Positions 18,624 through 55,419 of a DNA stretch of 55,521 nt are shown in pieces. A program made the translations under genes and the position numbers. A model generated the notes under the pieces. That model was given only the letters and a program-made list of their open reading frames with translations, had not been told where the DNA came from and ran no database searches. Source of the stretch: Chthoniobacteraceae bacterium (lineage in GTDB: Bacteria > Verrucomicrobiota > Verrucomicrobiia > Chthoniobacterales > Chthoniobacteraceae); NCBI GenBank assembly GCA_947476045.1, contig CANJNZ010000025.1:1-55521 (forward strand), read 5' to 3'. The stretch's first letter is position 1, and the number at the start of each line of letters is the position of its first letter.

Positions 18624-18681
18624 GCGAAAGGGAAGTGGGTCGGGCGAGACTCGAACTCGCAACCAACGCCTTAAAAGGGCG
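18624..18681. repeat. attL: 58-bp direct repeat carrying a tRNA-Lys 3' fragment
   Basis: Identical over 58 bp to 26079-26136. Positions 18636-18681 reproduce the last 46 nt of the tRNA-Lys gene (minus strand), up to and including the anticodon loop and part of the anticodon stem, after which similarity stops. It is not a functional tRNA gene. It is the original chromosomal 3' end displaced by insertion. Confidence 0.9.
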
Positions 18682-18719
18682 TGGTTATACACTGTTGGAC
18701 AAAAATACTTGGCGATTAC

Positions 18720-18748
18720 TTGACATATAGAGGGTTTTTTCGACTATA
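18720..18748 (+). promoter_or_regulatory. candidate integrase promoter overlapping a possible recombinase site
   Basis: TTGACA at 18720-18725 is followed after 17 bp by ACTATA (18743-18748), a plausible sigma-70-like pair just upstream of the integrase ATG at 18758; the leader would be very short. The overlapping word ACTTGACATATAG (18718-18730) resembles ACTTGTCAAATAG at the other end of the element, so the site may also bind recombinase. Confidence 0.35.
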
Positions 18749-18757
18749 TGCGCTCCT

Positions 18758-19891
18758 ATGCGCAAGACTTCGCTTTCTATTAAAAAAACACGGGTCAACG
18801 GGCTTCTCTTTTGGCAAGTCACCGCTCCTAAACTCGGCGGCGGACGGGAACGGCGGACGTTCAAAGATAGAGCGGAGGCTTCGGCGTTTTTTGAGACTGC
18901 CAAGATTCAACAGGAAAACTATGGCACGGCTGCGCTTTCAATCTCAGACGGGTTGAGGGTGCAGGCGGTGGAGTGTGAAACGCGGTTGGCGAAGTTTGGA
19001 AAGTCTCTGCGTGATGCGACGGATTTTTACTTGGCGCATTTGAAAACGATTGCGGGGAGTCGTAGCGTGCGGGAGGTCGTCGCGGAAATACTAGCGGCGC
19101 GGGAGACGGATGGGGCGAGCGTGCGCTATCTCGGCGATCTACGGGCACGGCTGGCACGTTTCGCCGCTGCATTTGGGGATGCCATGATCGCCAGCGTCAC
19201 GACGCGCCAAATTGGTGAGTGGTTGCGCGGGCTTGGGGTCGGCGGCGTGACACGAAACTCGTATCGTCGTCGGCTGGCTGCTCTTTTCAATTTTGCGCGG
19301 CGGCAAGGCTATCTCGTCCAGTCACCGATTGCGGATGTGGACAAGGCGAAAGAGCGAAGCGGAGAAATCAAAATCCTGACGTTGGATCAAACGTCGCGGC
19401 TGCTAGAGGCTGCGAGTGCGGAAACGCTGCCGTATTGGGCAATAGGAGCGTTTGCGGGCCTGCGCAGTGCGGAGATCGGGCGGTTGAATTGGGCGGACGT
19501 AGATTTCGAGGACGGGCTTATCGAGGTAAAGGGGAACCACAAAACCGCCAGCCGCCGCTTCGTGCCAATGTCTGACAGTCTCCGCGAATGGCTCGCGCCT
19601 TATCGCGCCAGCAAGGGCGATGTTTGTCCGATGGGCTTGCGTAAAAAGCTCGAAGCGGATCGTGAGCGTGCGGGATTGCGCGAAGATTGGCCGAGTAACG
19701 CGCTTCGCCACGGCTACGGGTCGTATCGGCTGCCCATGATTACAGATGTTGCGCGGCTCGCGCTGGAAATGGGGAACTCGCCCGCGATGGTTTTCAAACA
19801 CTACCGCGAGATTGTGAAGCCCGCGCTGGCGAAACGCTATTGGGAAATCAGTCCCACGAAGGCGAAGAACATTGTGCGGATGGTCGGTTAG
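18758..19891 (+). CDS. int: tyrosine recombinase (phage-type integrase)
   Basis: 377 residues. The C-terminal catalytic domain has the first Arg in FAGLRSAEIGRLNW, the beta-hairpin Lys in GNHKTASRRF, the second Arg box NALRHGYGSY (the usual first His is Asn, a variation tolerated in this branch) and the Tyr nucleophile in VFKHYREIV. The middle is a SAM-like core-binding domain (DFYLAHLKTIAG...YRRRLAALFNFARRQGYL), and an N-terminal arm-binding segment starts KTRVNGLLFWQVTAP. It would catalyse site-specific recombination between the tRNA-Lys attB and the element's attP. It sits next to attL, far from the intact tRNA. Confidence 0.95.
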   Translation: MRKTSLSIKKTRVNGLLFWQVTAPKLGGGRERRTFKDRAEASAFFETAKIQQENYGTAALSISDGLRVQAVECETRLAKFGKSLRDATDFYLAHLKTIAGSRSVREVVAEILAARETDGASVRYLGDLRARLARFAAAFGDAMIASVTTRQIGEWLRGLGVGGVTRNSYRRRLAALFNFARRQGYLVQSPIADVDKAKERSGEIKILTLDQTSRLLEAASAETLPYWAIGAFAGLRSAEIGRLNWADVDFEDGLIEVKGNHKTASRRFVPMSDSLREWLAPYRASKGDVCPMGLRKKLEADRERAGLREDWPSNALRHGYGSYRLPMITDVARLALEMGNSPAMVFKHYREIVKPALAKRYWEISPTKAKNIVRMVG

Positions 19892-20054
19892 TCGCTGTGT
19901 TGCGTCCTTCGCGCACTCATGCGAATATCTGCGCAATGAAGGCCAAGGGGACTAGACAATCCATTTTCAAGGGGAAGGAGGGGCACCCCACCCTCGGCAC
20001 CGGGGGAACTGCGCAACGGCGGGACTCCCTAGAGAGGCGTCAGCAGATTTCCCC

Positions 20055-21026
20055 ATGAAAACGAATCTTTCAAAGCTGCGTTTAGATTTCAGAGTCTTTG
20101 AGCCGCCGGATTGGAGAGAGTGGGATTTCAGCAAAAAGCAAGTGCCAGACAGCGTAGTTAAGGCGTGCTGTGCGTATGAATATGTGCGCGAAGCGTTGCG
20201 CCAGCCATACGTTTTTGAGCTTTTGAAGGGGCTGTCCAAGTCTGCGGAAAATCAGCAACGGCAGATTAGAAACGAGTTGCGGCGAGTGCTTCACAAAATG
20301 CCTTATAGTTATTTTGCCACCTTCAATGAGCCGATGAAACCTTGGATTGAGCTGCAACAGGAAATTGCCAGTGCGGGGAAGCGGGCGGACGGGACGAAAA
20401 TGCCTTTTGTTGAATTGAAGAAGGCGCTTCTTGATACTGTGTCGAAATCAATCGCACCGCCGAAATGGGATTCATTTCGAGCGCAACTCGCGCCCGCTGA
20501 TCGATACCAGCAATGGCTTGAAGGCTCGATTGAAGGCTCCTTTGAATTGTTCTCGGCCATTGATCAAAAAGATACGTGCGCCAAATGGACAAAAGGGGAA
20601 TGCGCCTACGGTTACTTCGCATTTGATCCGTATAGTGACAAGAAGGAGATCGTTACTGCTTTCACGAAATGGCTGGAAAAAAACGGCTTTCCAAAGAAAA
20701 AGCCCACACGGGGAGGTGCAAAGAAAGCGCGAAAACAGTTAAGGGAACTTGCCGCGCTCAGGCTGCGAAATCATCTCGGCAGAAAGACATGGGATAAACT
20801 CGACCCGCCTGATGGGCATGAGTTGCCATATCGGCACCAAGGCCACGCGGGGACGGCAGCGAAGGACGCGCAGAAAAGATTGGAGAGCCTGATCGGACGA
20901 GATGATCCGGCGGAACGGGAAGCGTGGGAACAAGAGCAGCGGGAACGGAGAGAAAGGATGAGTAAAACACTCCGCGAAATTGGATGGAAAATGCCGCCCG
21001 CCCGCCCGCGTAGAGTTACGCGGTAA
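20055..21026 (+). CDS. unknown protein of the integrative element
   Basis: 323 residues, soluble, lysine- and arginine-rich, with aromatic-rich helices (EPPDWREWDFSKKQVPDSV, MPYSYFATFNEPMKPWIELQQEIA, CAYGYFAFDPYSDKKEIV) and a strongly charged C-terminus (REAWEQEQRERRERMSKTLREIGWKMPP). No catalytic motif or known domain was recognised. It lies between integrase and the excisionase-like gene, a position often held by element-specific accessory or DNA-binding proteins. A 163-bp gap separates it from int; nothing is seen there. Confidence 0.7.
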   Translation: MKTNLSKLRLDFRVFEPPDWREWDFSKKQVPDSVVKACCAYEYVREALRQPYVFELLKGLSKSAENQQRQIRNELRRVLHKMPYSYFATFNEPMKPWIELQQEIASAGKRADGTKMPFVELKKALLDTVSKSIAPPKWDSFRAQLAPADRYQQWLEGSIEGSFELFSAIDQKDTCAKWTKGECAYGYFAFDPYSDKKEIVTAFTKWLEKNGFPKKKPTRGGAKKARKQLRELAALRLRNHLGRKTWDKLDPPDGHELPYRHQGHAGTAAKDAQKRLESLIGRDDPAEREAWEQEQRERRERMSKTLREIGWKMPPARPRRVTR

Positions 21027-21084
21027 GGAGAATATCTTACCGTGTTATACAAGACTCAGCGTGTGACCGAAGGGTTGCGCACAC

Positions 21085-21312
21085 ATGAGCAACAAATCAA
21101 ATCCAACAGATCCCTCAACAGAACCCTCGCGCAACATCCTAAACAAGCCCGAAGCCGCCCGCTACCTCCACCTATGTCAGCGAAGCGTGGAAATGGCTGT
21201 CCGCGCAAAAAAGCTGGCAGCAATCCGCTACGGCCCACGGGCGATCCGATTCACTAAAACAGACCTCGACGCATTCATTGCACGGCACCGGCTACGCGCT
21301 GCTGGCGAGTAA
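21085..21312 (+). CDS. excisionase-like helix-turn-helix protein
   Basis: 75 residues with the MerR/excisionase-type winged helix: NILNKPEAARYLHLCQRSVEMAVRAKKLAAIRYGPRAIRFTKTDLDAFI. The order helix-turn-helix, then a basic wing and the TKTDLDAFI strand-helix is typical of small Xis/AlpA-like proteins that direct excision or regulate element genes. It lies directly upstream of the replication gene. Confidence 0.85.
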   Translation: MSNKSNPTDPSTEPSRNILNKPEAARYLHLCQRSVEMAVRAKKLAAIRYGPRAIRFTKTDLDAFIARHRLRAAGE

Positions 21313-21328
21313 TCCAAACACGCGAAAA

Positions 21329-21360
21329 GCCGCACCCTGCCGGGAAGCTGTAAGTGCGGC
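21329..21360 (+). terminator. hairpin between the excisionase and primase genes
   Basis: GCCGCAC (21329-21335) and GTGCGGC (21354-21360) form a 7-bp perfect stem with an 18-nt loop, followed by CTTTGCGATTT. The T-run is weak, so it may be a poor terminator or an attenuator ahead of the primase ATG at 21379. Confidence 0.35.
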
Positions 21361-21378
21361 CTTTGCGATTTCACTACA

Positions 21379-22680
21379 ATGAAAACCTTACACGATTCTA
21401 CAGGTGGAGGCAAGGATGCAGACGACAATGTTCCTCAGAAAATTGAGGTATTGAAGGCGCTTTTAGGCAACGCCGTATTTGTTCAGTGCAACAATGGAAA
21501 AGGCGGCAAAGGGCCGATCATCAAAGGCTGGCAAACGCTCACGCTAAAGCAAATGACCGAAGCCCACCTTCGGCAGTGTGAGTGTCCAGACTATCGCATC
21601 GGCGTCGTATTCGGGATCAACAGCGGCGGACTCGTTGGGCTGGACTGTGATGACGATATATTTGCCGATGAAATGTTTCGGCTCAACCCGTGGCTGTTAG
21701 GCACCCTCACGACGACTTGCAACCGTGGCAGGACGTTCTGGCTTCGCATCACTGACCGCTGGCCGAGAAACGCTTTTCTTTACTTGAACGGAATTAAAGT
21801 GGGCGAGTGGCGGGCTGACGGAAACCAGAGCGTCCTTGCTGGACAAGATACGGAGACGAAGAATTGGCGGCGGTTCGTTTGCCGCGCCCCGGCTATGGCG
21901 ATCCCCTTCTCGGTGCTGGTCTGGCCGAAAAGACTCGAATGCGGCGGGGAGAATATACGGCATCCGTGGCCGCCTGTGCCACTGCCAGAGGCTATGTTGC
22001 CGGATGTTTCTGCTGTTCCTCTTACTGTCAGCACATCCAAGGATGTAGAACAAGGATGTAGAACGAAGCTTCGTTCTACATCTTCCTGTTCTACATCTAC
22101 GCGTTCTACATCGGAGGGAGAGAGGGAGCAGAAACAGAAGCGGCTTTACCGCAGCCTCGTCGGGCACTTGCCCGCCACGGAGGGAACCCGAAACGCAATG
22201 CTCAACCAGAGCGTGAACTATCTCATCCACGCGATCTCCGAACCATTGGTCATCAAGTTCCTGCTTCGCCACTTTGACGAGAAAGGAAAACCTGGAGGAT
22301 GGAGTGACACCCGCGATGAGCACGAAAAATCCGTCCGCAATCTTGTCGCGGGCTGCGTGCGTGACTACCCCGAAAAGTTATCGGAAGAACAGCGCACAAT
22401 ATACCTCAGCTTGCGCGATGAAACGGAGCGCACAACCTTTCGGATATGCCGCGACCTCGCCAAACGGGACGATCCCGAACGAGGATGCCCGCAGGGGCTC
22501 TTTTTACTCGCCTATGGGGAACTTGCCGCCCGACTCGATGTTGGCACTGGTTTGGCCGAGAAAGTCTTGAAACACCGCTTCAGGGACGAGTTGAAGATCG
22601 TTGCCGTGGTGACACCGGGGACGCGACGAAGCAAAGACACTCCGGGGCTGGCGACCCGTTGGCGGTGGCTGCTCACATGA
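21379..22680 (+). CDS. primase-polymerase-like replication protein
   Basis: 433 residues. The N-terminal half resembles bifunctional primase-polymerase (prim-pol) domains: PIIKGWQTLTLKQMTEAHLRQC, then GVVFGINSGGLVGLDCDDDIFAD, whose LDCDD supplies metal-binding acidic residues, followed by TTTCNRGRTFWLRI and EWRADGNQSVLAGQ. A Ser/Thr-rich linker follows (about residues 215-250), then a helical C-terminal half with a winged-helix-like end (LFLLAYGELAARLDVG). No helicase Walker motif is seen. It probably initiates replication of the excised circle. The linker is encoded by an iteron/palindrome cluster (22042-22112). Confidence 0.78.
   Translation: MKTLHDSTGGGKDADDNVPQKIEVLKALLGNAVFVQCNNGKGGKGPIIKGWQTLTLKQMTEAHLRQCECPDYRIGVVFGINSGGLVGLDCDDDIFADEMFRLNPWLLGTLTTTCNRGRTFWLRITDRWPRNAFLYLNGIKVGEWRADGNQSVLAGQDTETKNWRRFVCRAPAMAIPFSVLVWPKRLECGGENIRHPWPPVPLPEAMLPDVSAVPLTVSTSKDVEQGCRTKLRSTSSCSTSTRSTSEGEREQKQKRLYRSLVGHLPATEGTRNAMLNQSVNYLIHAISEPLVIKFLLRHFDEKGKPGGWSDTRDEHEKSVRNLVAGCVRDYPEKLSEEQRTIYLSLRDETERTTFRICRDLAKRDDPERGCPQGLFLLAYGELAARLDVGTGLAEKVLKHRFRDELKIVAVVTPGTRRSKDTPGLATRWRWLLT
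22042..22112. repeat. iteron-like cluster of GATGTAGAAC with a 28-bp palindrome
   Basis: Five copies of the 10-mer GATGTAGAAC: direct at 22042 and 22055, inverted at 22073, 22088 and 22103. The second and third form a perfect 28-bp palindrome (22055-22082) centred on AAGCTT. Direct copies are 13 bp apart and the inverted copies 15 bp apart. The cluster lies inside the primase gene, in the stretch encoding its low-complexity linker. This layout is what one expects of a replication-origin binding array. Confidence 0.75.
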
Positions 22681-22785
22681 TAGGCCGCGCTCGCGTGCAT
22701 CACATACAATCGGGCGCACTGAGCGGGGCATCCATGTTGAAATTGTGTGATTGTTATTCGCACAAAGGCGGGTTGAATCGTCGGC

Positions 22786-23169
22786 ATGAATGAGGACTAC
22801 ACGTTTGAAGCGTTGAAGCGGAAGCTCAAGGCCGCGAAGGGCGGCGACATATCGGAAGAAGAGGAAGCGGGGTTGCGGGATATTGCAGCAATACACAAAG
22901 AGGCATCCGAACAGGAACAGAAAGCGACTGCTGCCCTTGAAGAACTTTCGCGGATAAAAGCGGAGAACGAAGAACTCAAAAGGCTGTTGGAGGATGAGCG
23001 GACATTCACCAAGGGGATACGCGAGAAGTTCAAGGCCTCAATTCAGCAAAAATCAGTAAGCAGAAAGGTGAGGGGGTTGAACGCGCTGCATCTCCTGTTG
23101 GCGAAAAAGGGGATTCCGTTTTCGATTGAAGGCGAAGGCGGCGACAAAGACCAAAACAGACAAGTCTGA
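22786..23169 (+). CDS. small coiled-coil protein of the integrative element
   Basis: 127 residues, mostly heptad-patterned helix (AAIHKEASEQEQKATAALEELSRIKAENEELKRLLEDERTF), with a basic C-terminal part (QQKSVSRKVRGLNALHLLLAKKGIPF). It probably oligomerises; function unknown. It follows the primase gene after about 105 bp on the same strand. Confidence 0.65.
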   Translation: MNEDYTFEALKRKLKAAKGGDISEEEEAGLRDIAAIHKEASEQEQKATAALEELSRIKAENEELKRLLEDERTFTKGIREKFKASIQQKSVSRKVRGLNALHLLLAKKGIPFSIEGEGGDKDQNRQV

Positions 23170-23226
23170 GCTTGCCTCGCTTTGGTGGTCACTTTTGCAA
23201 ACTCACATTAACCCTCGCCCGCTTTC

Positions 23227-23616
23227 TTACGTGCCCTTCACGGGGCGCACCGTCGAAAGTTTCACGCGCTCGTAGCCCCGGCTCTTTGCGGAGTCGGGAT
23301 GCGGCTCCAGTCCGATCACCGTGATAACCCCGCGCACCGGCCCATAAACCCAAAACAAACGACCCGCCGCTGGCTTGCGGTTTTCGAGATACGACTGCCA
23401 AACCTTGATCCCGTATCGCTTGGAGAGATCGGAAATCTCGTGAGACGCCAGCCCCGGATGTGCGGGACTCGCCGCCAGAAAGCCCGCCGTCTTTACCAGC
23501 TTTTTGAAAAGCTTCAGCTCGTCCCCGTCCAACGTGCCCGCATCCGCCTTGCCCGTTAAATCCTTCCACAGCTTCTCCATTTCAGGAACGCCCCATTCAA
23601 TCGAGAATTTTGCCAT
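23227..23616 (-). CDS. probable RelE/ParE-like toxin
   Basis: 129 residues. The C-terminal half has the RelE/ParE-type strand pattern: ISDLSKRYGIKVWQSYLENRKPAAGRLFWVYGPVRGVITVIGLEPHPDSAKSRGYERVKLS. It is second in a two-gene minus-strand operon with a 22-bp gap, preceded by a 101-residue basic protein and a palindromic operator. A toxin role fits the fold and arrangement; ribosome-dependent RNase or gyrase activity cannot be told apart from sequence alone. Confidence 0.6.
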   Translation of the reverse strand: MAKFSIEWGVPEMEKLWKDLTGKADAGTLDGDELKLFKKLVKTAGFLAASPAHPGLASHEISDLSKRYGIKVWQSYLENRKPAAGRLFWVYGPVRGVITVIGLEPHPDSAKSRGYERVKLSTVRPVKGT

Positions 23617-23638
23617 TGTGCCGCCTTTCGCTCAGACT

Positions 23639-23944
23639 CTACTTCGCAAACTGGGCGTATTTCTTCAAATCCGCTGGCTTGGAACGCTTCCCAGCGCGGA
23701 GGTTTCGGATCGCCTTGTCCATGCCTTGCAGCGTCCGTGCTGAAACCGCCCCGGCCTTCGCATTGCCCGGCTTTGTCGGAATGCGGGCTGGCTTCCCTTT
23801 TCCCAATTCAAGCAGCTTCAAAACAATCGAGCCGTTCTTGCAATGCCGCACCCGAAAAACACCCCTCTCTGCAACGTGAATCACTACGCATTTATTGGCG
23901 TCAACGCGGGCGTCGTATTCCTTCACAGCGGCGAGAGTCTGCAT
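23639..23944 (-). CDS. probable partner (antitoxin) of the downstream toxin
   Basis: 101 residues, first in the two-gene operon. The N-terminal half looks strand-rich (CVVIHVAERGVFRVRHCKNGSIVLKLLELG) and the C-terminal half is basic and helical (ARTLQGMDKAIRNLRAGKRSKPADLKKYAQFAK), compatible with DNA binding or toxin wrapping. No named antitoxin family is recognised, so the assignment rests on position and on the inverted repeat 12 bp upstream. Confidence 0.5.
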   Translation of the reverse strand: MQTLAAVKEYDARVDANKCVVIHVAERGVFRVRHCKNGSIVLKLLELGKGKPARIPTKPGNAKAGAVSARTLQGMDKAIRNLRAGKRSKPADLKKYAQFAK

Positions 23945-23955
23945 GAATGAGATGT

Positions 23956-23973
23956 TTCACGTTATTGCGTGAA
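23956..23973 (-). promoter_or_regulatory. palindromic operator candidate of the toxin-antitoxin pair
   Basis: TTCACG-TTATTG-CGTGAA is a perfect inverted repeat with a 6-bp spacer. It lies 12 bp upstream of the ATG at 23944, where an autorepressing antitoxin would bind. Confidence 0.5.
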
Positions 23974-24077
23974 TTGCAATATCGTTGCGTAGTTTTTTCG
24001 CAAAGTTCGCTGCTCTGGAAGCGACAGCGAAACGCGGGGCTTGGCTGCTTGCGAAGTGAGGCCAACGCTGACGCACT

Positions 24078-24347
24078 CTATCCGCGCAAGCGTGCCAGTG
24101 ATGTTTTCACCGCCTGCGAACGAGAAGGAAGGAGCGCATCCAATGCGACGTTTAGAACTGCGGCCAGAATCACCAACTCCATATCCGAAACCCATCGCTC
24201 GCCGGATTCGATGCGATTCACAATGTCGCGGCTCACATCCCATCCGAAACGCTGACATTTGGTAGCAAACGCCGCTTGCGACAGGGATCGCTCCGCACGG
24301 ATGCGGCGGAGTTGCGGGGCTACGATATTGCGCGGGTGATCGGGCAC
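24078..24347 (-). CDS. XRE-family transcriptional regulator
   Basis: 89 residues from a GTG at 24347. It is a Cro/C1-type helix-turn-helix: LRRIRAERSLSQAAFATKCQRFGWDVSRDIVNRIESGERWVSDMELVILAAVLNV. Single-domain regulators of this kind commonly repress element genes. It is divergent from the RCC1 cargo gene (82 bp) and upstream of the toxin-antitoxin operon on the same strand. Confidence 0.85.
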   Translation of the reverse strand: MPDHPRNIVAPQLRRIRAERSLSQAAFATKCQRFGWDVSRDIVNRIESGERWVSDMELVILAAVLNVALDALLPSRSQAVKTSLARLRG

Positions 24348-24429
24348 GGAATTGGCCCGCGATAGTGCTAAGAATTAGAACTTCCATTGCGCGGAATCCC
24401 GCTCAATCTTTGCGGGTAATCCCAAACCC

Positions 24430-25728
24430 ATGGAAACACTCATCCTCTCACTCGCCGCGCTCCTGCTCAATCGAATCTTCCGCGCTCTTCCATCGCTTTT
24501 ATTTATCACCGCCTCTCTTTGGATGGCAAATGCAGTGGCTATTGCTACGCCGATCACACTGGTGACATGGGGAGGCAACGGCATTGGCCAAACGACTATT
24601 CCTGCTGGATTAAGCGAAGTGACAGCCATTGCGGCAGGTGGTTCTCACACAGTGGCATTGAAGAGCGATGGAACGGTTCTGGTGTTGGGAGACAACAGCT
24701 ATGGCCAAACGACTATTCCTGCCGGATTGAGTGGAGTTACGGCCATTGCGGCAGGTGATGCGCACACTGTGGCTTTGAAGAGCAATGGCACGGTGGTGGC
24801 ATGGGGACTAAACGGCATTGGCCAAACGACTATTCCTGCTGGATTGAGTGGAGTGACGGCTGTTGCGGCAGGTGGTTTTCACACCGTAGCATTAAAGAGC
24901 GATGGAACGGTGACGGCATGGGGAGACAACAGCGGCGGCCAAACGACTATTCCTGCTGGATTGAGCGAGGTTACGGCCATTGCGGCAGGTGATGAGCATA
25001 CCGTGGCTTTGAAGAGCAATGGCACGGTGGTGGCATGGGGATCGAACCGCGGAGGTGAAACGACCATTCCTGCTGGGTTAAGCGGGGTGAAAGCGATTGC
25101 TGCACGCCAATATGAAACCGCTGCCTTGACGAGTAACAGCATTGCGATACCCCCTCCTGATTATCCTCAAGTAATTTATAAATCCGTAGGAAACCAAACG
25201 ATCTTTGGAAACGGAAAGGTTGCACATATCACCGCCAAAGGGTTTTTAGTGCTCTCTAGCGGCGTGACGTTTGGCTACCCCGTAAAAGCAACTGCCATTG
25301 CGGGCTTTACCCTCAACGGACTTAAACTTTTCAGCGTTGTGCCATTGGAAAACTACCGATGGGATACTTATTCAGGGGCGAACGGAGCCACGTATTCGAC
25401 TATGGCGAAGGCCGAGAGTCCCGGCACTCAGTTTGATGGTGTGCTGCTGGAAGCAGTGTATCTGAGAGGGAAAAATACAACGTTGAATCTCGGCCCGACT
25501 GCCTCTGCATTCATGCCGCGAACCTTCTTCTCGTCGGCCAGATCGATAGGACTCAATTCACAAACAGGCATCAAAACAGTCGGCGAAGTTACAGGCTCTT
25601 ACGTTTTCGATCAAAAAGCGACCGCTGCGAGCAATCAACTGGAGACATACGATGAAGCAGTGACAAGGCTTTCCAACGGCTTTGCAGGGCGCGGCTACAC
25701 GCAGTTCTTCCCGCCGCCCGCGCAGTAG
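24430..25728 (+). CDS. exported RCC1-repeat protein, cargo of the integrative element
   Basis: 432 residues. After a hydrophobic N-terminus (LPSLLFITASLWMANAVAIA) come five near-identical repeats of about 38 residues (GQTTIPAGLSGVTAIAAGDAHTVALKSNGTVVAWG), a short RCC1/ATS1-like unit encoded by 114-bp tandem DNA repeats. The last 200 residues are a non-repetitive domain (KSVGNQTIFGNGKVAHITAKGFLVLSSGV..., then ...RGYTQFFPPPAQ) that I do not recognise. It is probably secreted or surface-exposed. It is the last gene before attR and the only obvious cargo. Host RCC1 proteins (46183-55419) use longer units, so it is not a simple copy of them. Confidence 0.8.
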   Translation: METLILSLAALLLNRIFRALPSLLFITASLWMANAVAIATPITLVTWGGNGIGQTTIPAGLSEVTAIAAGGSHTVALKSDGTVLVLGDNSYGQTTIPAGLSGVTAIAAGDAHTVALKSNGTVVAWGLNGIGQTTIPAGLSGVTAVAAGGFHTVALKSDGTVTAWGDNSGGQTTIPAGLSEVTAIAAGDEHTVALKSNGTVVAWGSNRGGETTIPAGLSGVKAIAARQYETAALTSNSIAIPPPDYPQVIYKSVGNQTIFGNGKVAHITAKGFLVLSSGVTFGYPVKATAIAGFTLNGLKLFSVVPLENYRWDTYSGANGATYSTMAKAESPGTQFDGVLLEAVYLRGKNTTLNLGPTASAFMPRTFFSSARSIGLNSQTGIKTVGEVTGSYVFDQKATAASNQLETYDEAVTRLSNGFAGRGYTQFFPPPAQ

Positions 25729-26078
25729 TGAGTAGGGGGTTAAGGGGCTTTCTTTCCTCGACGGAATCTGCCGCACTCCCGCCCATGTGCCGCTTCTAAA
25801 GTTACACCGCAGTTTGATCCAGTTCAGCAGCGCAGGGTTAAATACGCGGCAGGTTTAACGGTTGAGGTTTTAACGGGGGTTAAGTTTTGCGGGCTTCGTC
25901 TGATTGCGTTTTTGAGGGGTTAGATCGAGAAAGGGGTAAAGGCATAGCGCGAATGGAAGGAAGCTTGTCAAATACTTGTCAAATAGACTGCGCTTTTGTT
26001 CGTATCCTAGCGGACATATGCGGAACGCTCCAAAGTCGTCTATCGCCCTGAAGCCCTGTATTCATGCGGTTTTCCTAC
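25729..26078. other. non-coding right end of the element, with 11-bp tandem repeat
   Basis: 350 bp without a credible gene. GGTTAA words recur between 25738 and 25920. CTTGTCAAATA occurs twice in tandem (25964-25974, 25975-25985). With one flanking base each side the second copy resembles ACTTGACATATAG near the other end (18718-18730), as arm-type integrase sites would. Confidence 0.45.
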
Positions 26079-26136
26079 GCGAAAGGGAAGTGGGTCGGGC
26101 GAGACTCGAACTCGCAACCAACGCCTTAAAAGGGCG
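26079..26136. repeat. attR: 58-bp direct repeat overlapping tRNA-Lys
   Basis: Perfect copy of 18624-18681. It restores the 3' end of the tRNA, so the host keeps a functional gene after integration. Confidence 0.9.
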
Positions 26137-26162
26137 CTGCTCTACCATTGAGCTACCGACCC
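26091..26162 (-). tRNA. tRNA-Lys (UUU)
   Basis: 72 nt folding as a full cloverleaf: acceptor GGGTCGG/CCGACCC with discriminator A, D-arm GCTC/GAGC, anticodon arm GCGCC-CTTTTAA-GGCGT (anticodon TTT, with one G-T pair), T-arm GCGAG-TTCGAGT-CTCGC. CCA is not encoded. The 3' 46 nt belong to the integrated element's attR. Confidence 0.97.
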
Positions 26163-34784: not shown

Positions 34785-35130
34785 TACCTTCCCTCAAGGT
34801 AACGCTACCTTTGCCGGGGCTGGCCCTACCTTTTCAAAAGGTAACGCTACCTTTTGCACGGCTGGCCTTACCTTCCCGCAAGGTAACGCTACCTTTTACG
34901 CGGCTGGCCTTACCTTTTCAAAAGGTAACGCTACCTTTGTCGCGGCTGGCCCTACCTTTTCGCAAGGTAACGTTACCTTTGGCGCGGATAGCCCTACCTT
35001 TCCGCGAGGGAACGCTACCTTTGGCGCGGATAGCCCTACCTTTCCGCGAGGTAACGCTACCTTTTGCGGGGGCAGCGCTACCTTTCCGCAAAGAAACGCT
35101 ACCTTTTGCGACGCTAGCCTTACCTTTGGT
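34785..35130. repeat. 42-bp tandem repeat array with nested hairpins
   Basis: Eight units start at 34798, 34840, 34882, 34924, 34966, 35008, 35050 and 35092, each with GGTAACGCTACCTTT and a second CTACCTTT half. Within units AAGGTA...TACCTT and ACCTTTT-C-AAAAGGT are self-complementary, so both strands can form stem-loops at nearly every repeat. The unit is free of stops in several frames on both strands (14-codon repeats such as GNATF..AG.TFS), so the long ORFs here (for example 34556-35323) are probably by-products. The flanking 34536-34784 has GCGGATT and CACGAAG words and no supported gene. Confidence 0.85.
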
Positions 35131-46182: not shown

Positions 46183-49100
46183 CTACTGCGTAGTGACGGT
46201 GAGGCGGAGGGTGTTTTGTAAGCGGCCTGTGGTGGGGAGGGTGAAGATGTGCTGGTTGCCGGTGCCGGTATCGGGGATGGGGGTCCAACTGCCGGGCTGG
46301 AGGGTGGTGCTCCATTCGGCGCCGTAGGTGATGCCGCTGATGCCGGGCGGCTCGGTGAAGTTGTAGCCGATGTTGCTGCCGTTGATTTGTGGTTGCGGGA
46401 GTTGGTTGCGGTCGGGCTGGTTGGGGTTCAGGCCGAAGGCGTATTCGAGGAGGTTGCAGTTGCCGTCTTTGTCGAGGTCGAAGGTGTTTGCGGCGTTGCC
46501 TGCGTTGGCGGGGTTGCCGAAGTGGGTCTGCCGCCAGTTTTCCAAGGTGATGAGTTGCGCGACGATGAGGGTGAAGTTTGCGGTGCGGGTGTTGTTGGCG
46601 GCGTCCTTGGCGGTGAGGGTGACTGGAATCTGATTACCGACGACGTAGGCGGTGCCTGCCGTGGGTGTTTGTGTGAAGGTGGTGATGCCGACGGCGTCGG
46701 TGGCGGCGACGGTGGTGGTGAAATCGGGCAGTGTGTAGTTTCCTGCGGCGTCGGAGTTGACGTTGCGGCTGACGGGCGGCGGGGTGAAGACGGGCGCTGT
46801 GGTGTCCTGCACGCGGATGGTGAAGCCGCTATTTGTTGTTTCCGCAGCGCTGTCGGTGGCGGAGGCGTTGACGATGGTGTCGCCAATGGCGAAGGTGCTG
46901 CCGCTCGCTCTGGAAAGGTTTGGCGTGAGTGCGCCATCTTCGCTGTCGGTGGCGGTGGCGTTGAAATTGACGAGGGCACCGCTGGCGGAGGTGGCTTCGA
47001 CGAGGAGAGGGGAGCCGGGCAGATTGAGGATGGGGAGGTGGTTGGTGGTGAAAGTCTGATCCGCCCCGTAGGTGGTGATGCCGTTGGCGGTGACGGTGGC
47101 GCGATAGTGATAGGTGGTGCCGACGGCGAGGCCGGTGATCGCGGCGCTGACGTTTTGGTTCACGCTGCCGTTGGCGGGGCTGAGTGTGATGGCGGCGGTG
47201 CTACCGTAGTTCGTGTCGGCCCCGTATTGAAATTGCGCAGTGCTGGTGTAGCCGCTCGGGTTGATGTCGGTTCTGAGGGTTGCGCCGGTGCTCATGATGT
47301 TCGTCGCTCCAAGCGTGCTGACCGATGGTGCGGGCAGGCCGTAGATGGCGGTGGAGTGGCTTGCAGTGGAGCCGGGGCTTCCGATCCCGCTCGCGATGCG
47401 GGTGGCAAGGACGCTGGTGCCGGCGGTGGTGTTCACGGGGACGGGGGCGTTGCGCTGGGTGGTGGTGTTGTCGCCGAGCTGGCCGCTGGTGTTGAGGCCC
47501 CATGCGACGAGGGTGCCGTCGGCACACAGTGCTGTGCTGTGGGCGCTGGCTGCAGCGATGGCGGAGATTGTTTTTCCAAAGAGTGCGCTGGTGCCGCTGG
47601 CGGTGTTCACCACGATGGGTGAATTACGCTGGGCGGTGGTGTTGTCGCCGAGCTGGCCGTTGGTGTTCAGTCCCCATGCTGCGAGGGTGCCGTCGGTGCA
47701 GAGTGCGAGGTTGTGGGTGCTGCCGGAGGCGATGGCGGCCACCGTTTTTCCGTAGAGGGCGCTGCTTCCGTTCGCGGTGTTGACGAAAACGGGAAGGGCG
47801 CTTGCGCTCGTGGTGCCGTCGCCGAGCTGACCGCTGGCATTGTCACCCCAGGTGAGCAGGGTGCCGTCGCTGCAAAGGGCTAGATTGTGGATGCTGCCTG
47901 CGGTGATGGTTGTGATTGCTTTGCCATAGAGTGGGCTGGTGCCTTTGAGTGCGTTGACGGCGACGGGGACCAGACGGTTGGTTGTGGTGTTGTCGCCGAG
48001 CTGGCCGCTGGCGTTGAGGCCCCACGCCGCCACGGTGCCGTCGGAGCAAAGTGCGAGGCTGTGGCTGCCGCCTGCGGCGATGCAGGTCACCGTTTTTCCG
48101 GAAATGATGCTGAGGCCAGTGGATGTGTTCACTTTCACCGGCGATGGGCGCTGTGTCGTGGTGTTGTCACCGAGTTGCCCGCTGGTATTGAGGCCCCATG
48201 CGGCGAGGGTGCCGTCGGAACACAGCGCGAGACTGTGGCTGTCTCCTGCAGCGATGAAGATGACTTTCTTTCCAAGGAGCGCACTGCCCGCACTCACGGT
48301 CACGGGGGAGGTGCGTAGTGTCGTAGAGCCGTTGCCGAGCTGGCCGTTGGTGTTCAAGCCCCATGAAAAAACTTTTCCATCGCTGGTGAGCGCGAGGGTA
48401 TGGCTGGCTCCACGCGCTATTTGCACGATTGTTTTTCCGGCAAGCACTCCGGTCTGGATGACCGAGGCAGGGGCGTTGCGCTGAGTCGTCGTGCTGTCGC
48501 CCAGTTGGCCGCTGGCATTGAGGCCCCATGCGGCCAGGCCGGTGTAAGGCCAGAGGAGCACGAGGTCGTTGCCATCGCCGCCGAAATACGATGCGACGAA
48601 GGTATAATTGGTTCCGTTGTAGGGGAGGCTCACGGTTGCGCCGTTGGCAATGTTGCTAAATTGCCCGGTGATGAATCGCGCTCCTGTGTTGCGGACGACT
48701 GTCAGATTCGTTCCGGGTGCTGGCGCAAAATTGAGGGTCAAATTGAGCGTTGTATTGGTGGCAGTCAGCGCGGTGGTGCTGATTGGGACATCGCTGGCGG
48801 AGTTGAAGGTTGAGTTCAGTGCCGCAGGCGTTTTGATTCCAGTCAGCGCGATTTGGAAGGAATTTTCGTCATAGTCACTGCTCGCGATTTGGATCGCTGC
48901 ATTTTTTACCCCCTCGCTGCCCGGGGCGAAGGTGATTTGAAATGTCGCACTGGCTCCGGCGGGGATGACGGCGGGCGGCTGGCTCACGATGGTGAAGTCC
49001 GGGGCGTTGGTGCCGGACAATGTTGCCGCGAGTCCCGTCAACGGCCAGCCTCCCAGGTTGTTCACGCGAATGGTCCGTGTCTCGGTCGGGACAATCCCGA

Positions 49101-52100
49101 AATCCACTGTGCTCTGGTTGTTCGTGGGTGTGACGAGGGATGGCTCCAGCACTTCAACATCTATTTCCGGTGCCGTGGTGTAGAAAAGGGCGAGTGAGAG
49201 GTTGGACAGTGAACTGGCGGCACCCAATTCTTTGATGAGCGTGTCCGCGAGTGCGCTGCCGGTTGCGGTGCTCACGGCGACTGGTGCATTGCGCTGGGTC
49301 GTGCTGTTGTCGCCGAGCTGGCCGTAGCTGTTGAGCCCCCACGCGGCGATGGTGCCGTCGGAGCAAAGTGCGATGCTGTGTGCGCTGCCTGCGGAGATTG
49401 CGGTGACGGTCTTTCCAAAAAGAAAACTGACTCCGCTGGTCGTGTTCACTTTCACCGGCGATTTACGCTGGGATGTGGTGTTGTCGCCAACTTGACCGCT
49501 GGTATTCAGGCCCCACGCGACCAGCGTTCCATCGTTGCAAAGGGCGAGGGTGTGCGTGGCTCCGGCGGCGATGGAGGTCACCACTTTTCCAAAGAGCGCG
49601 CTGGTCGCGCTCGCGGTGTCCACAGCCACGGGCACTGAGCGGTTGCTGGTGGAGTTGTCGCCGAGCTGGCCGTTGCCATTGAGCCCCCACGCCAGCACTG
49701 TTCCGTCGGAGCAAAGGGCAAGGCTGCGTCTGTCGCTTGCGACGATGGATGTGATCGTTTTTCCAAAGAGCGCGCTGACTCCATCGGCGGAGTTCACGAC
49801 CACCGGGGCGTTGCGCTGTGTCGTGGAGTTATCGCCGAGCTGCCCGCTCGCATTGAGGCCCCACGCGACGAGCGTGTTGTCCGAGCACAGCGCAAGGCCG
49901 TGCGCATTGCCCGCTGAGATCGCCGTCACGGTTTTTCCAAAGAGCGCGCTGGTTCCGTTTGCAGCGTTCACAATCACCGGCGCATTGCGCTGCGTCGTGG
50001 AGTTGTCGCCGAGCTGTCCGTTCGTATTGAGTCCCCACGCGACGACGGTGTTGTCCGAGCACAGCGCGAGGCTGAAGGAATCCCCGGCAGCAATGGCGAT
50101 CACCGTTTTCCCGAAAAGCGCGCTGGTGCCGCTGGCCGTGTTCACAGCCACGGGCGCATTGCGCTGTATCGTGGAGTTGTCGCCAAGCTGCCCGCTCGCA
50201 TTGGCGCCCCACGCATAAACTTTCCCCTCGGTGCTCAGCGCAAGCGTGTGGTCTTTGCCTCGTGCAATCTGCACCAGAGTTTTGCCCGCAAGCACGTCGG
50301 ACTGGAGCACTGCCGTCGGCACGCTGCGTTGCAGTCCCGTGTTGTCGCCCAGTTGCCCGGTGTCGCCCTGCCCCCACGCCGCGACATTCACATACGGCCA
50401 CAGCAGCACGAGATCGTTTCCATCCCCGCCGTAATACCACGCCACGAAAGAATACGTCGTCCCATTGTAAGACAGATTGACCGTCCCGCCATTGGGCACA
50501 TTGCTGAACTGCCCCGCGATGAACCCCGTCCCCACATTGCGTATCACCGTCAAATTCGTTCCAAACGGCGGCGCAAAGTTCAGCGTCACGTTCAACTGCT
50601 CCCCGGAAACATTTGGCGCATTCAGGGCAAAGGCAATGTCGTCCGCCGCGTTAAACGTCACATGATACCCCGTGAACGTCGGCTTGGTGCCCGTCAGCGC
50701 GATGACGAATGGAGGCAAACCGGGCGTCGTGTTCGCAATCTGAAGCGTCGTGTTCTTCACACCCGCACTTCCCGGCGCGAAGATCACTTGGAATATCGAG
50801 GACCCGCCGCCTGAAACGACTGACGTTGGCTGGTTGACGATGACAAAATCCGCCGAGTCAGCTCCAGCGACAGATACCGCCAACCCGGTCAGAGGCAAAT
50901 CCCCCGAATTTTTGATACGGAAAGTGCGCATTCCATACTGCGTGCTGCCATAGTCCACCGTGCTAACATTATTGGTCAATGAGGTGAGCGCAGGCTCCAG
51001 CACTTCCAATTCGATGTTTGGCGATAGGACTCCATAGAGCGCGAGAGAGTGGTTCGCTGCCAATCCTGATAAACCCATTCCACGGACGATACGCCCACTT
51101 AGCGCACTGGTTCCACTGGCTGTATTCACAGCCACAGCAGCATTGCGCTGGGTAGTAGAATTGTCGCCAAGCTGGCCGCTGTCGTTCAGCCCCCAAGCCA
51201 CCATTGTGCCGTCAGAGCAGAGAGCGAGACTATGGTTTTGGCTCGCTGAGATCGCGGTTACTGTTTTTCCAAAGAGGGCGCTGGTTCCGTTAACTGAGTT
51301 CACGAGCACGGGTGCATAGCGAGTGTTTATCGTATTGTCGCCGAGCTGGCCGTTAGTGTTGATACCCCAAGATGCTATCGTGCCATCAGAGCACAAAGCG
51401 AGGTTGTGATATTCTCCTGCCGAGATGGACGTGACGGTTTTCCCAAAGAGGGCGCTAATCCCGCTGGCTGTGTTCACCGCCGTAGGCACATAGCGTGACG
51501 AAGAACTGTTATTACCGATTTGACCGGACGAGCTGTAACCCCACGCTGCAACGGTTCCGTCGGAGCAAAGAGCGATACTGTGGTATTTTCCCATCGCCAC
51601 GGATGTTACAGTTTTTCCAAAAAGAGCACTGACTCCACTCGCAGCATTTACTGCCACAGGTGTGTGACGCTCGGTGGACGTGTTGTCGCCGAGTTCACCG
51701 TAGCCATTGTATCCCCAAGCTGCCAGAGTGCCATCGGAGCAGAGGGCAAAGCTGTGGAAGGTGCCCGCCGCGATGGCTGTCACTGTTTTTCCGAAGAGCG
51801 CACTGGTTCCGTTGTCTGTATTCACTACGACCGGGGCGTGACGGTAAACTGTTGTATTATCACCGACCTGGCCGGAAAAGTTGTATCCCCAAGACACAAG
51901 AGTGCCATCCGAGCACAGGGCCAAATTGTGATCCCTGCCCGCTGATATCGCGACGACCGTTTTTCCAAAGAGAGCACTGGTTCCATTATCGGTGTTCACC
52001 TCAACCGGGACGTTTCTCTGCGTGGTCGAGTTGTCACCAAGCTGACCTGCGTAGTTGTCGCCCCACGCATAGACTTTTCCTTCGCTGGTTAGCGCAAGAG

Positions 52101-55100
52101 TGTGAAACCCGCCTCGCGTAATCTGCACGATGGTCTTCCCTGCGAGCGCACCGGCTTGCTCCACGGGAGTAGGGGCAAGGCGGTTGATAGTCGAATTGTC
52201 CCCAATCTGCCCATCGCTATTACTACCCCAAGTCGCCACACCAATGGAGGGCCAGAGGAGGACGAGGTCATTGCCATCCCCGCCATAATACCACGCGATG
52301 AACGGATAGGTCGTCCCATTATAGCTCAGGTTCACCGTGGCTCCGTTGGCAGCGTTGTTGAACTGTCCGAGGATATAGTTTTTTCCCGTGTTACGGATGA
52401 CGGTCAGATTTGTTCCGGGAGTCGGAGCAAAATTCAGTGTCAGATTGAGTGTCGTGTTTGCTGCGTTGAACAGATTTGTCGTGAGTGCCACGTCGCTTGG
52501 ACTGTTATATGTCCCTGTCAACGTTGCGTTCGTTGGCCCTGTTCCAGATAGGGCGATGCGAAAAGGATTTTCGTCGGGATCGTTGCTGGCAATCTGGAGT
52601 GTCGCACTTTTGGCTCCAGCAGAACGGGGCGCGAAGGTCACTTGGAGTGTCGTTGAGTCGTTTGATGCTACTATCGATGCCGGTTGGCTGATGATGAAGT
52701 CGGACGCATTCGCGCCGGATACACTAGCAGATATGTCAGCTAGGGGCAGACCGCCACTGTTGCGGATACGGAGGGTTCGAGTGAGAAGTGTTGTAGCACC
52801 GTAGTTCACGGTGCTGTTATTGTTTGTCAATGCCGTGACGGTAGGCTCCAGCACCTCGACATCGATCTCCGGCAGTGTGGCACCGTAGATAGCGAACGAT
52901 TGGTAGCCGGATGCACCAATGCTTTTTGAAGTGTTCCCTGCAAGTGTGCTGACGCCGTTTGTTGTATTGACCAGCACCGGCACAGAGCGGTCTGTGGTCG
53001 AATTGTCGCCGAGCTGACCGTAATAATTGCCGCCCCAAGCTGCGATGGTGCCGTCTGAGCACAGGGCCATACTATGATCGGAAGCTGCTGCTATTGCAGT
53101 CACTGTTTTACCAAAGAGCGCGCTGGTTCCATTAATTGTATTTACAGCTACTGGAAAGTTACGCGGAAATGTGTTCGAGGTGTCTCCTAATTGTCCGTTA
53201 TAATTATATCCCCAGGCGGATATTGTTCCATCGGAACACAAGGCTAGGTTGAAGTCATCTCCCGATGCAATCGCTGTGACTGTTTTTCCAAAAAGCGCAC
53301 TGGTTCCGCTGGCCGTGCTCACGGGAGTTGGTGTATTTTTTTGGGTTGGATAGACATAGCTGATTCCAAGTTGGCCATAGACGCTGTTTCCCCAAGCTGC
53401 GATCGTTCCGTCTGAGCATAGCGCCATACAGTGCGATCTTCCCGCCGTAACGGCCATCACAGTCTTTCCAAAGAGCGCACTATATAGCTCGGATGAATTG
53501 ACTGTCACCGGAGCATTACGCTGGGTCGTTGTATTGTCGCCGAGCTGACCGTAGTAATTGTAGCCCCAAGAGGCCACCGTGCCGTCGTAGCAAAGAGCGA
53601 CAGCGTGGATGGAACCGGCCGCGATGGCTGTCACCGTTTTACCAAAGAGTGCGCTGGTTCCGCTGGTTGTGTTCACTGCTACTGGCGCAGTGCGTTGGGT
53701 CGTTGTGTTATCGCCTAGCTGGCCGTAGGTGTTATCACCCCAAGCAGTCACGGTGCCGTCGGAGCACAGGGCGAGGCTGTAATGATTGCCAGATGCTACA
53801 GCTATGACCGTTTTTCCAAAGAGCGCACTGATTCCGTTCGTCGTGTTCACTGCCACTGGTGAATGGCGATCTATTGTGGTGTTATCACCGATCTCTCCGT
53901 TCGTATTCAGGCCCCATGCATAAATCTTTCCTTCGCTGCTCAGTGCCAGTGTGTGGGTGGGACCTGCGGCCACTTGGATGATGGTCTTGCCTGCAAGCGC
54001 TGCAGATTGCTTTACAAAGGACGGTGCCAAATGGTTGGCCGTCGTGTCATCGCCAAGCTGCCCATAGCCATTATAACCCCAAGCTGCGATACCCGTGTAG
54101 GGCCAGAGCAGAACGAGGTCATTTCCATCGCCTCCGTAATACCACGCGACGAAGGGATATGTTATGCCGTTGTAGGTGAGGTTCACCGTTGCACCGTTGG
54201 CAATATTGCTGAAGCGCCCGTTGATGAAACCTCTCCCTGTATTACTGACTACTGTGAGATTTGTTCCTGGAGATGGTGCGAAATTCAGCGCAAAATTTAC
54301 CGATAATCCTGTGGCGTCGAATCCATAACTTGTAAGTGGAACATCATAGCCCGTGTTATATGTTGCAGTCAGGGTCGTGCTGGCAGGGGGCGTTCCTGTT
54401 AATGCAATGCGAAACGGATTTTTGTCTATGTCGTTACTTGTTATCCGAAGTGCCGCGCTTTTTGCCCCTACACTCGTTGGAGCAAAGCTGACTTGCATGA
54501 GCGTCGAGGAGCCTCCTGCAATAGTCGCGGCGGGCTGGGCGGTAATGATGAACTCCGTTGGGTTTACGCCGGTAAGAGAGGCGGACACACCGATGAGTGG
54601 TAGGTCGCCAGTATTCCTGATGCGGATGGTTCTCACTGCACCCAACGCAGAACTGTAGTCTAGCGTATTTACATTCTCCACCAAAGGTGTGACGTAAGGC
54701 TCCAGCAATTCGACTTCAATCTTTGGCGCACGGAGTCCGTAGATCGCCATGGAATGTGAGGCGCGTGGGCTTAATGAGTTTATGGCTGTGGCTACACGGC
54801 CAGCCAATACGCTGCTTCCGTTGGCTGTGTTCACCGCTACAGGAGCACTGCGAGAGATGACTGTTGTATTGTCACCAAGCTGGCCCCAAAAATCATTACT
54901 GCCCCATGCGGCTATTGTTCCGTCTGAGCATAGGGCTAGGCTGTGCTCAGAGGCTGCGGTAATAGCTGTTACTGTTTTTCCAAATAATGCGCTGGTTCCA
55001 TTGGCGGCGTTCACTGCCACCGGGGCAATCCGCCAGATCGTGGTATTATCGCCGAGTTGGCCGTAGTAATTATTACCCCAGACAGCCACAGTGTGGTCAG

Positions 55101-55419
55101 AGCAGAGCGCCATAGAGTGATTGGAACCCGCCACAATGGCTGTCACGTTTTTTCCAAAAAGCGCACTGGTTCCGCTGGTCGTATTGACTGCTGTAGGGGT
55201 ATTGCGTTGCTGGTTGGAGTTATCGATAACATTAATTCCAAGCTGGCCGCTGTCGTTGTTACCCCAAGCTGCGACAGTGCCGTCGGAGCAGAGGGCAAGG
55301 CTATGACCATTGCCTGCCGATATAGCAGTCACCGCCTTGCCAAATAGAGCACTCATATTACTGGACGTGTTAAGGAAACGCTGATTTAATCGCGTAGTGC
55401 CGCAGAAAAAGCGAGTCAC
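46183..55419 (-). CDS. giant exported RCC1/ASH repeat protein, 5' end cut by IS5
   Basis: 3078 codons remain. From the N-terminus: three RCC1 repeats (the cut first propeller), then four modules. Each module is an ASH-like domain (LEVLEP..., IRN.GDLPL.G, TSND.DENPFRIALTG) near residues 240, 860, 1475 and 2090, a linker ending in GGDGNDLVLLWPY, and a seven-repeat RCC1 block (AWG.N..GQLGDN, about 56 residues each). Then come a fibronectin-like domain (about 2690-2780), HYR-like domains and a C-terminal LENWRQTHFG...DLDKDGNCNLLEYAFGLNP segment. RCC1 total: 31 repeats. The first 15 or so residues (TRFFCGTTRLNQRFL) come from the IS element, so the native start and signal peptide lie beyond the window. 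Confidence 0.85.
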   Translation of the reverse strand: MTRFFCGTTRLNQRFLNTSSNMSALFGKAVTAISAGNGHSLALCSDGTVAAWGNNDSGQLGINVIDNSNQQRNTPTAVNTTSGTSALFGKNVTAIVAGSNHSMALCSDHTVAVWGNNYYGQLGDNTTIWRIAPVAVNAANGTSALFGKTVTAITAASEHSLALCSDGTIAAWGSNDFWGQLGDNTTVISRSAPVAVNTANGSSVLAGRVATAINSLSPRASHSMAIYGLRAPKIEVELLEPYVTPLVENVNTLDYSSALGAVRTIRIRNTGDLPLIGVSASLTGVNPTEFIITAQPAATIAGGSSTLMQVSFAPTSVGAKSAALRITSNDIDKNPFRIALTGTPPASTTLTATYNTGYDVPLTSYGFDATGLSVNFALNFAPSPGTNLTVVSNTGRGFINGRFSNIANGATVNLTYNGITYPFVAWYYGGDGNDLVLLWPYTGIAAWGYNGYGQLGDDTTANHLAPSFVKQSAALAGKTIIQVAAGPTHTLALSSEGKIYAWGLNTNGEIGDNTTIDRHSPVAVNTTNGISALFGKTVIAVASGNHYSLALCSDGTVTAWGDNTYGQLGDNTTTQRTAPVAVNTTSGTSALFGKTVTAIAAGSIHAVALCYDGTVASWGYNYYGQLGDNTTTQRNAPVTVNSSELYSALFGKTVMAVTAGRSHCMALCSDGTIAAWGNSVYGQLGISYVYPTQKNTPTPVSTASGTSALFGKTVTAIASGDDFNLALCSDGTISAWGYNYNGQLGDTSNTFPRNFPVAVNTINGTSALFGKTVTAIAAASDHSMALCSDGTIAAWGGNYYGQLGDNSTTDRSVPVLVNTTNGVSTLAGNTSKSIGASGYQSFAIYGATLPEIDVEVLEPTVTALTNNNSTVNYGATTLLTRTLRIRNSGGLPLADISASVSGANASDFIISQPASIVASNDSTTLQVTFAPRSAGAKSATLQIASNDPDENPFRIALSGTGPTNATLTGTYNSPSDVALTTNLFNAANTTLNLTLNFAPTPGTNLTVIRNTGKNYILGQFNNAANGATVNLSYNGTTYPFIAWYYGGDGNDLVLLWPSIGVATWGSNSDGQIGDNSTINRLAPTPVEQAGALAGKTIVQITRGGFHTLALTSEGKVYAWGDNYAGQLGDNSTTQRNVPVEVNTDNGTSALFGKTVVAISAGRDHNLALCSDGTLVSWGYNFSGQVGDNTTVYRHAPVVVNTDNGTSALFGKTVTAIAAGTFHSFALCSDGTLAAWGYNGYGELGDNTSTERHTPVAVNAASGVSALFGKTVTSVAMGKYHSIALCSDGTVAAWGYSSSGQIGNNSSSSRYVPTAVNTASGISALFGKTVTSISAGEYHNLALCSDGTIASWGINTNGQLGDNTINTRYAPVLVNSVNGTSALFGKTVTAISASQNHSLALCSDGTMVAWGLNDSGQLGDNSTTQRNAAVAVNTASGTSALSGRIVRGMGLSGLAANHSLALYGVLSPNIELEVLEPALTSLTNNVSTVDYGSTQYGMRTFRIKNSGDLPLTGLAVSVAGADSADFVIVNQPTSVVSGGGSSIFQVIFAPGSAGVKNTTLQIANTTPGLPPFVIALTGTKPTFTGYHVTFNAADDIAFALNAPNVSGEQLNVTLNFAPPFGTNLTVIRNVGTGFIAGQFSNVPNGGTVNLSYNGTTYSFVAWYYGGDGNDLVLLWPYVNVAAWGQGDTGQLGDNTGLQRSVPTAVLQSDVLAGKTLVQIARGKDHTLALSTEGKVYAWGANASGQLGDNSTIQRNAPVAVNTASGTSALFGKTVIAIAAGDSFSLALCSDNTVVAWGLNTNGQLGDNSTTQRNAPVIVNAANGTSALFGKTVTAISAGNAHGLALCSDNTLVAWGLNASGQLGDNSTTQRNAPVVVNSADGVSALFGKTITSIVASDRRSLALCSDGTVLAWGLNGNGQLGDNSTSNRSVPVAVDTASATSALFGKVVTSIAAGATHTLALCNDGTLVAWGLNTSGQVGDNTTSQRKSPVKVNTTSGVSFLFGKTVTAISAGSAHSIALCSDGTIAAWGLNSYGQLGDNSTTQRNAPVAVSTATGSALADTLIKELGAASSLSNLSLALFYTTAPEIDVEVLEPSLVTPTNNQSTVDFGIVPTETRTIRVNNLGGWPLTGLAATLSGTNAPDFTIVSQPPAVIPAGASATFQITFAPGSEGVKNAAIQIASSDYDENSFQIALTGIKTPAALNSTFNSASDVPISTTALTATNTTLNLTLNFAPAPGTNLTVVRNTGARFITGQFSNIANGATVSLPYNGTNYTFVASYFGGDGNDLVLLWPYTGLAAWGLNASGQLGDSTTTQRNAPASVIQTGVLAGKTIVQIARGASHTLALTSDGKVFSWGLNTNGQLGNGSTTLRTSPVTVSAGSALLGKKVIFIAAGDSHSLALCSDGTLAAWGLNTSGQLGDNTTTQRPSPVKVNTSTGLSIISGKTVTCIAAGGSHSLALCSDGTVAAWGLNASGQLGDNTTTNRLVPVAVNALKGTSPLYGKAITTITAGSIHNLALCSDGTLLTWGDNASGQLGDGTTSASALPVFVNTANGSSALYGKTVAAIASGSTHNLALCTDGTLAAWGLNTNGQLGDNTTAQRNSPIVVNTASGTSALFGKTISAIAAASAHSTALCADGTLVAWGLNTSGQLGDNTTTQRNAPVPVNTTAGTSVLATRIASGIGSPGSTASHSTAIYGLPAPSVSTLGATNIMSTGATLRTDINPSGYTSTAQFQYGADTNYGSTAAITLSPANGSVNQNVSAAITGLAVGTTYHYRATVTANGITTYGADQTFTTNHLPILNLPGSPLLVEATSASGALVNFNATATDSEDGALTPNLSRASGSTFAIGDTIVNASATDSAAETTNSGFTIRVQDTTAPVFTPPPVSRNVNSDAAGNYTLPDFTTTVAATDAVGITTFTQTPTAGTAYVVGNQIPVTLTAKDAANNTRTANFTLIVAQLITLENWRQTHFGNPANAGNAANTFDLDKDGNCNLLEYAFGLNPNQPDRNQLPQPQINGSNIGYNFTEPPGISGITYGAEWSTTLQPGSWTPIPDTGTGNQHIFTLPTTGRLQNTLRLTVTTQ

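Follow-up and report, generated by a model that had tools for sequence, protein, structure and literature searches.

The alpha protein of phage P4, a primase, also has a helicase domain and binds the origin through its C-terminal domain; its decamer sites in ori1 and crr, which occur in both orientations, lie outside its gene. In phage lambda, by comparison, the origin lies within gene O, so that the word array is carried by the initiator coding sequence itself, between functional parts of the protein (PMC6022878); lambda O has no primase domain, and in its origin four iterons of 18 bp stand next to an AT-rich region. In PICI/SaPI elements, integrase, AlpA, primase/initiator and iterons occur together, and the origin, which follows directly on the 3' side of the initiator gene, has an AT-rich region between two sets of iterons (PMC6092414). 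The PICMI satellites are small, and carry in order an integrase, an extra ORF, AlpA/HTH_17 and a primase, with no capsid genes seen; they sit at fis in Vibrionaceae, their primases match DUF3987/DUF5906 (PMC10803314), and a helper phage induces and packages them. Among the AEP families, an AEP primase bearing a C-terminal winged helix that is proposed to recognise the origin has been described (PolpTN2), in an account whose available part does not mention an embedded site array (PMC5862659). The locus considered here has, like lambda, a word array within the coding sequence of a putative initiator, but the words are of 10 bp, an AT-rich region was not found, and the candidate initiator is a Prim-Pol protein. 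It shares with the AEP example the joining of an AEP primase to a C-terminal winged helix, although the C-terminal domain is a different one.

The window, a stretch of 55,521 nucleotides from the draft genome (123 contigs) of a Chthoniobacteraceae bacterium (GCA_947476045.1, contig CANJNZ010000025.1), contains a small integrative element of about 7.5 kb in a tRNA-Lys gene (18624-26145), bounded by direct repeats of 67 nt that are 94% identical. The left-hand, attL-like copy (18624-18690) is a partial copy of tRNA-Lys; the right-hand, attR-like copy (26079-26145) is placed in the intact tRNA-Lys gene, which it overlaps (26090-26162, minus strand). The gene order recalls that of PICMI: a tyrosine integrase (18758-19891, plus strand; PF00589, E 6e-9; PHROG 1 integrase, E 4e-32) is followed by a 323-aa ORF in the PICMI iolg/icg position (20055-21026, plus strand), by an HTH_17 (AlpA/Xis-like) regulator or excisionase (21085-21312, plus strand; PF12728, E 6e-9; PHROG 66 excisionase, E 9e-5) and by the Prim-Pol primase, after which come several small ORFs and an RCC1-repeat protein. 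The 323-aa ORF has no match in Pfam, PHROGs, NCBIfam or PADLOC, and PADLOC found no defence gene. There is no helicase gene in the element and no recognised capsid or terminase gene, and because of the latter the element is plausibly a phage satellite, a candidate on its gene content. It differs from PICMI in sitting at tRNA-Lys and in that its primase matches PF09250 only; it differs from PICI in that the array is inside the gene, with no word cluster 3' of the primase gene. No close relative of the element was found. The RCC1-repeat gene (24430-25728), an unusual cargo, contains 117-bp DNA repeats, and elsewhere in the window a 3078-aa ORF occupies 46183-55419 on the minus strand.

The proposed initiator is a 433-aa protein (21379-22680, plus strand), in which the match to Prim-Pol (PF09250) at residues 41-169 scores 29 bits, above the curated cut-off of 22.8. 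AEP enzymes bear motifs I (hhhDhD/E), II (sxH) and III (hD/E), as defined in the account of the AEP families (PMC5862659). The motif I residues D89 and D91 and an invariant E143 are kept in the aligned Prim-Pol subgroup, which is also marked by RGxxxW and GEWR motifs, but on inspection of the alignment by eye, and with motif II so defined, this subgroup seems to lack the motif II histidine. Catalysis by the element's primase is therefore uncertain. In the full-length AlphaFold model, residues 196-243, which include the codons of the array, form a linker with pLDDT below 50. The C-terminal domain (22114-22680, plus strand), recognised in relatives by profile searches and modelled from an alignment of ten of them, is predicted with pLDDT 91 to consist of a helical part and then a winged helix. 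Foldseek against the PDB found no confident match to the whole domain; model residues 102-188 matched solved winged helices, several of them with DNA, at Z 7-9, among them RbkR, solved with operator DNA (Z 9.2), and the initiator entries 4pql/4pt7 (Z 7.5-7.8), values which are common for such a small fold and indicate fold, not function. The model thus gives this domain a winged-helix fold. The protein is not O-like, having no replication-O match in PHROGs, and no relative of the whole protein was found in phage and plasmid collections or in viral contigs.

In the low-confidence linker, just ahead of the confidently modelled winged-helix domain, are five exact copies of the 10-letter word GATGTAGAAC (22042-22112), two direct (starting at 22042 and 22055) and three inverted (22073, 22088 and 22103), all in frame within the 433-aa ORF. 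The second and third copies form a perfect 28-bp palindrome centred on AAGCTT (22055-22082). The direct copies differ from each other in reading frame, giving the peptides DVEQ and GCRT, and the three inverted copies in one common frame (R/C-STS), so the array is not explained by peptide repetition. In 3000 codon-preserving shuffles, no 10-mer was present in more than two copies within 90 bp, against the five observed, and a broader repeat score was 42 for the array and at most 8 in any of 200 shuffles; in the whole 7.5-kb element the array is the only cluster with at least three copies of an 8-mer. The preliminary description had reported the five copies and the palindrome, had placed them in linker codons between the two halves of the protein, and had argued that chance was unlikely and that the DNA pattern rather than the peptide was selected; the positions proved exact, and the models and shuffles bear out the rest. 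The array is real, and the constraint is on DNA, not on peptide.

The 4.37-Mb genome holds 12 exact copies of GATGTAGAAC, of which 5 are those of the array and the remaining 7 are no more than chance would give, and the notion of a host regulon was dropped on this ground; nor was a second inverted pair of the word present among 213 genomes of the same order. A genome-wide scan for GATGTAGAACN{0,30}GTTCTACATC gave 13 matches, all of them two-copy hairpins and near chance, and a search for direct word pairs in viral contigs gave 116, mostly repeated codons in unrelated genes with periods of 21 or 24 bp; both sets were rejected. As a separate observation, a coding region at 35013-35105 of the window contains four copies of AAAGGTAGCG spaced 21-42 bp apart.

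Profile searching with the C-terminal domain found 12 relatives, in which it is joined to several primase types: to Prim-Pol in L209 and L217 as in the window, to a BT4734-like part in L212, L213 and L222, and to other AEP-like N-terminal parts in L215, L216 and L224. In each gene, the 255 nt ahead of the domain received a score for 7-mers that recur there, whatever their orientation, and this was set against 1000 codon-preserving shuffles of the gene. Repeats were significant at p 0.001 each in the window, L212, L213 and L224, and also in L216 (p 0.004) and L209 (p 0.006), the linker windows being fixed by the profile match and L216 and L224 being mutually close (46% identity). Scores were weak for L210 (p 0.044), L225 (p 0.068), L219 (p 0.096) and L204 (p 0.097), and by the same test an array was absent from L217 (p 0.32), L222 (p 0.77) and L215 (p 0.81). 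Combined by Fisher's method over the 12 relatives, without the window, the enrichment has p 4.6e-9, compared with p 0.39 for 38 controls of 255 nt each from elsewhere in these genes, not one of them below 0.05. As a positive control, the test scores in lambda O at the annotated iterons (PMC6022878). Arrays are not universal in the family, or are sometimes too degenerate for the test, above all in L215. Prim-Pol relatives from the window's order that have a different C-terminal part show no linker array, except for an unrelated hairpin in L189. In a genome of the window's family, inverted AAATCTACCG-type words are arrayed in the linker of an O-like replication gene (L188:3318-3456), which is another candidate for an origin within a gene.

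The linker peptides are unrelated among the relatives with significant arrays, and the copy number, spacing and orientation of the words vary, the words themselves being common only in part. CTACAT, the core of GATGTAGAAC, occurs five times in the linker of L213, which is nearest to the window's protein in its C-terminal domain (32% identity, E 5e-24), and nowhere else in that gene; its copies are 7-8 bp apart and so fall in different frames. In the window's gene too CTACAT occurs five times and is confined to the linker, and such a result was obtained in none of 1000 shuffles for either gene. The linker of L212 has an inverted TGTGATG array and one CTACATCACA, and the linkers of the AEP-like primases L216/L235:7361-8758 and L224/L234:7500-8912 (46% identical) have CACTTCCC/GGGGAAG in common, in both orientations. 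These comparisons were made post hoc, so that the CTACAT and CACTTCCC cores weigh less than the linker enrichment test, and the common cores appear supportive rather than decisive.

The surroundings of the relatives are similar to those of the window's primase. An integrase gene with the orientation of the primase gene is located 1-4 kb upstream of it in L182, L184, L234, L235, L236, L237 and L238, and weakly in L183; an HTH_17-like gene precedes the primase in L183, L184, L235 and L236, and weakly in L182; and in L235 and L237 the integrase gene has a tRNA gene next to it. As most relatives are downstream of an integrase, several with HTH_17, the arrangement is that of a family of integrative elements.

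We consider it probable, at roughly 0.7, that the array consists of binding sites for the element's own initiator and marks an origin inside the initiator gene, in the manner of lambda O. The sequences show directly that the array exists and lies in the linker codons, that word arrays are enriched there across the family, and that the setting is an integrative element. By analogy, the locus may best be read as the lambda-O arrangement transferred to a Prim-Pol element. After excision of the element, the winged helix would bind the words as double-stranded DNA; the bound complex would open the DNA, recruit a host or helper-phage helicase and supply the primase, and origin and initiator would travel as one cassette. 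The main weakness of this reading is that no AT-rich unwinding region adjoins the array: no 50-mer tile of the gene exceeds 58% AT, and the lowest-GC windows (43%) coincide with the array itself. In addition, perfect conservation of the word is seen in one element only. The proposal of a single cassette of origin and initiator, made in the preliminary description, thus stands in part: the array and the linker enrichment favour it, against which are set the missing unwinding region, the restriction of perfect conservation to this element, and the fact that the origin is something we infer. Its expectation that homologous primases would combine repeated DNA with a variable linker peptide holds for several relatives, one of which (L213) shares CTACAT, but not for L215, L217 and L222, and it holds weakly for L204, L210, L219 and L225. 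The idea is also less unprecedented than that description implied, since it is the classical arrangement of lambda O, and the setting in a small tRNA-integrated element with integrase and HTH_17 genes, which it had not mentioned, now has to be added.

The words might instead be operators used by the primase or the HTH_17 protein to control transcription or copy number, by autoregulation or handcuffing, the origin being elsewhere. Inverted words of this kind are operator-like and are used by regulators too, and the lack of an AT-rich unwinding region next to the array would then present no difficulty; but the array is about 660 bp inside the gene, a search of 20900-23000 (for the sigma-70 consensus only) found no promoter-like site, and the element contains no other iteron candidate, so that this explanation seems unlikely. 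Still less probable, in our judgement, is that the array works single-stranded, either as a hairpin or template word at which primers are started on either strand (ssi-like), or as an mRNA hairpin affecting the primase transcript. The fold predicted for 22055-22082 is indeed very strong (DNA -21 kcal/mol, z -7.7; RNA -38 kcal/mol, z -7.5), but Rfam returned no match to it, a tRNA being the only hit, and L213, L209 and L210, in which the array copies are directly repeated, form no such hairpin, which is therefore not the common feature. That the array is merely a neutral local or inverted duplication or an assembly artefact is very improbable: linkers tolerate repeats, and the genome is a draft in which no close relative of the element offers confirmation, but the 10-mers are perfect although separated by spacers of unequal length (3, 8, 5 and 5 bp), the reading frame is uninterrupted, and the linkers of relatives are enriched likewise when other segments of their genes are not.

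Exact copies of GATGTAGAAC were also encountered in one uncultivated phage group (L020:4436-4475, L022:10197-10219 and L023:2059-2096), as three copies (++-) in L020 and L023 and as two, with degenerate ones, in L022, in each case including inverted pairs. These copies are intergenic, between the gene for a DnaC-like loader and the terminase-side genes, with an O-like gene farther on; relatives of the loader are present in the window's order and family. Repeats in the O-like gene of L020 were set aside as evidence, being partly a Gly-Ser peptide repeat. Comparably tight arrays occur about once per Mb of viral DNA, in a sample that had been fetched for other reasons, and the match in the phage collection is possibly due to chance. 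It is a speculative and rather doubtful suggestion that the element is a phage satellite and its initiator works on the phage sites as well, or that the phage carries decoy copies of the satellite's sites, the two sharing or contesting one origin word.

If the array does mark an origin within the initiator gene, then primases of several unrelated catalytic types, all from integrative elements, would form a family that carries its own binding sites in the gene beside a common winged-helix domain. The initiator would move and diverge together with its origin, and the origins of such elements could be found directly from sequence. The relatives of the domain, with their known words, would offer a testable case of co-evolution between protein and site, and the arrangement bears on how small satellites without a helicase of their own replicate.
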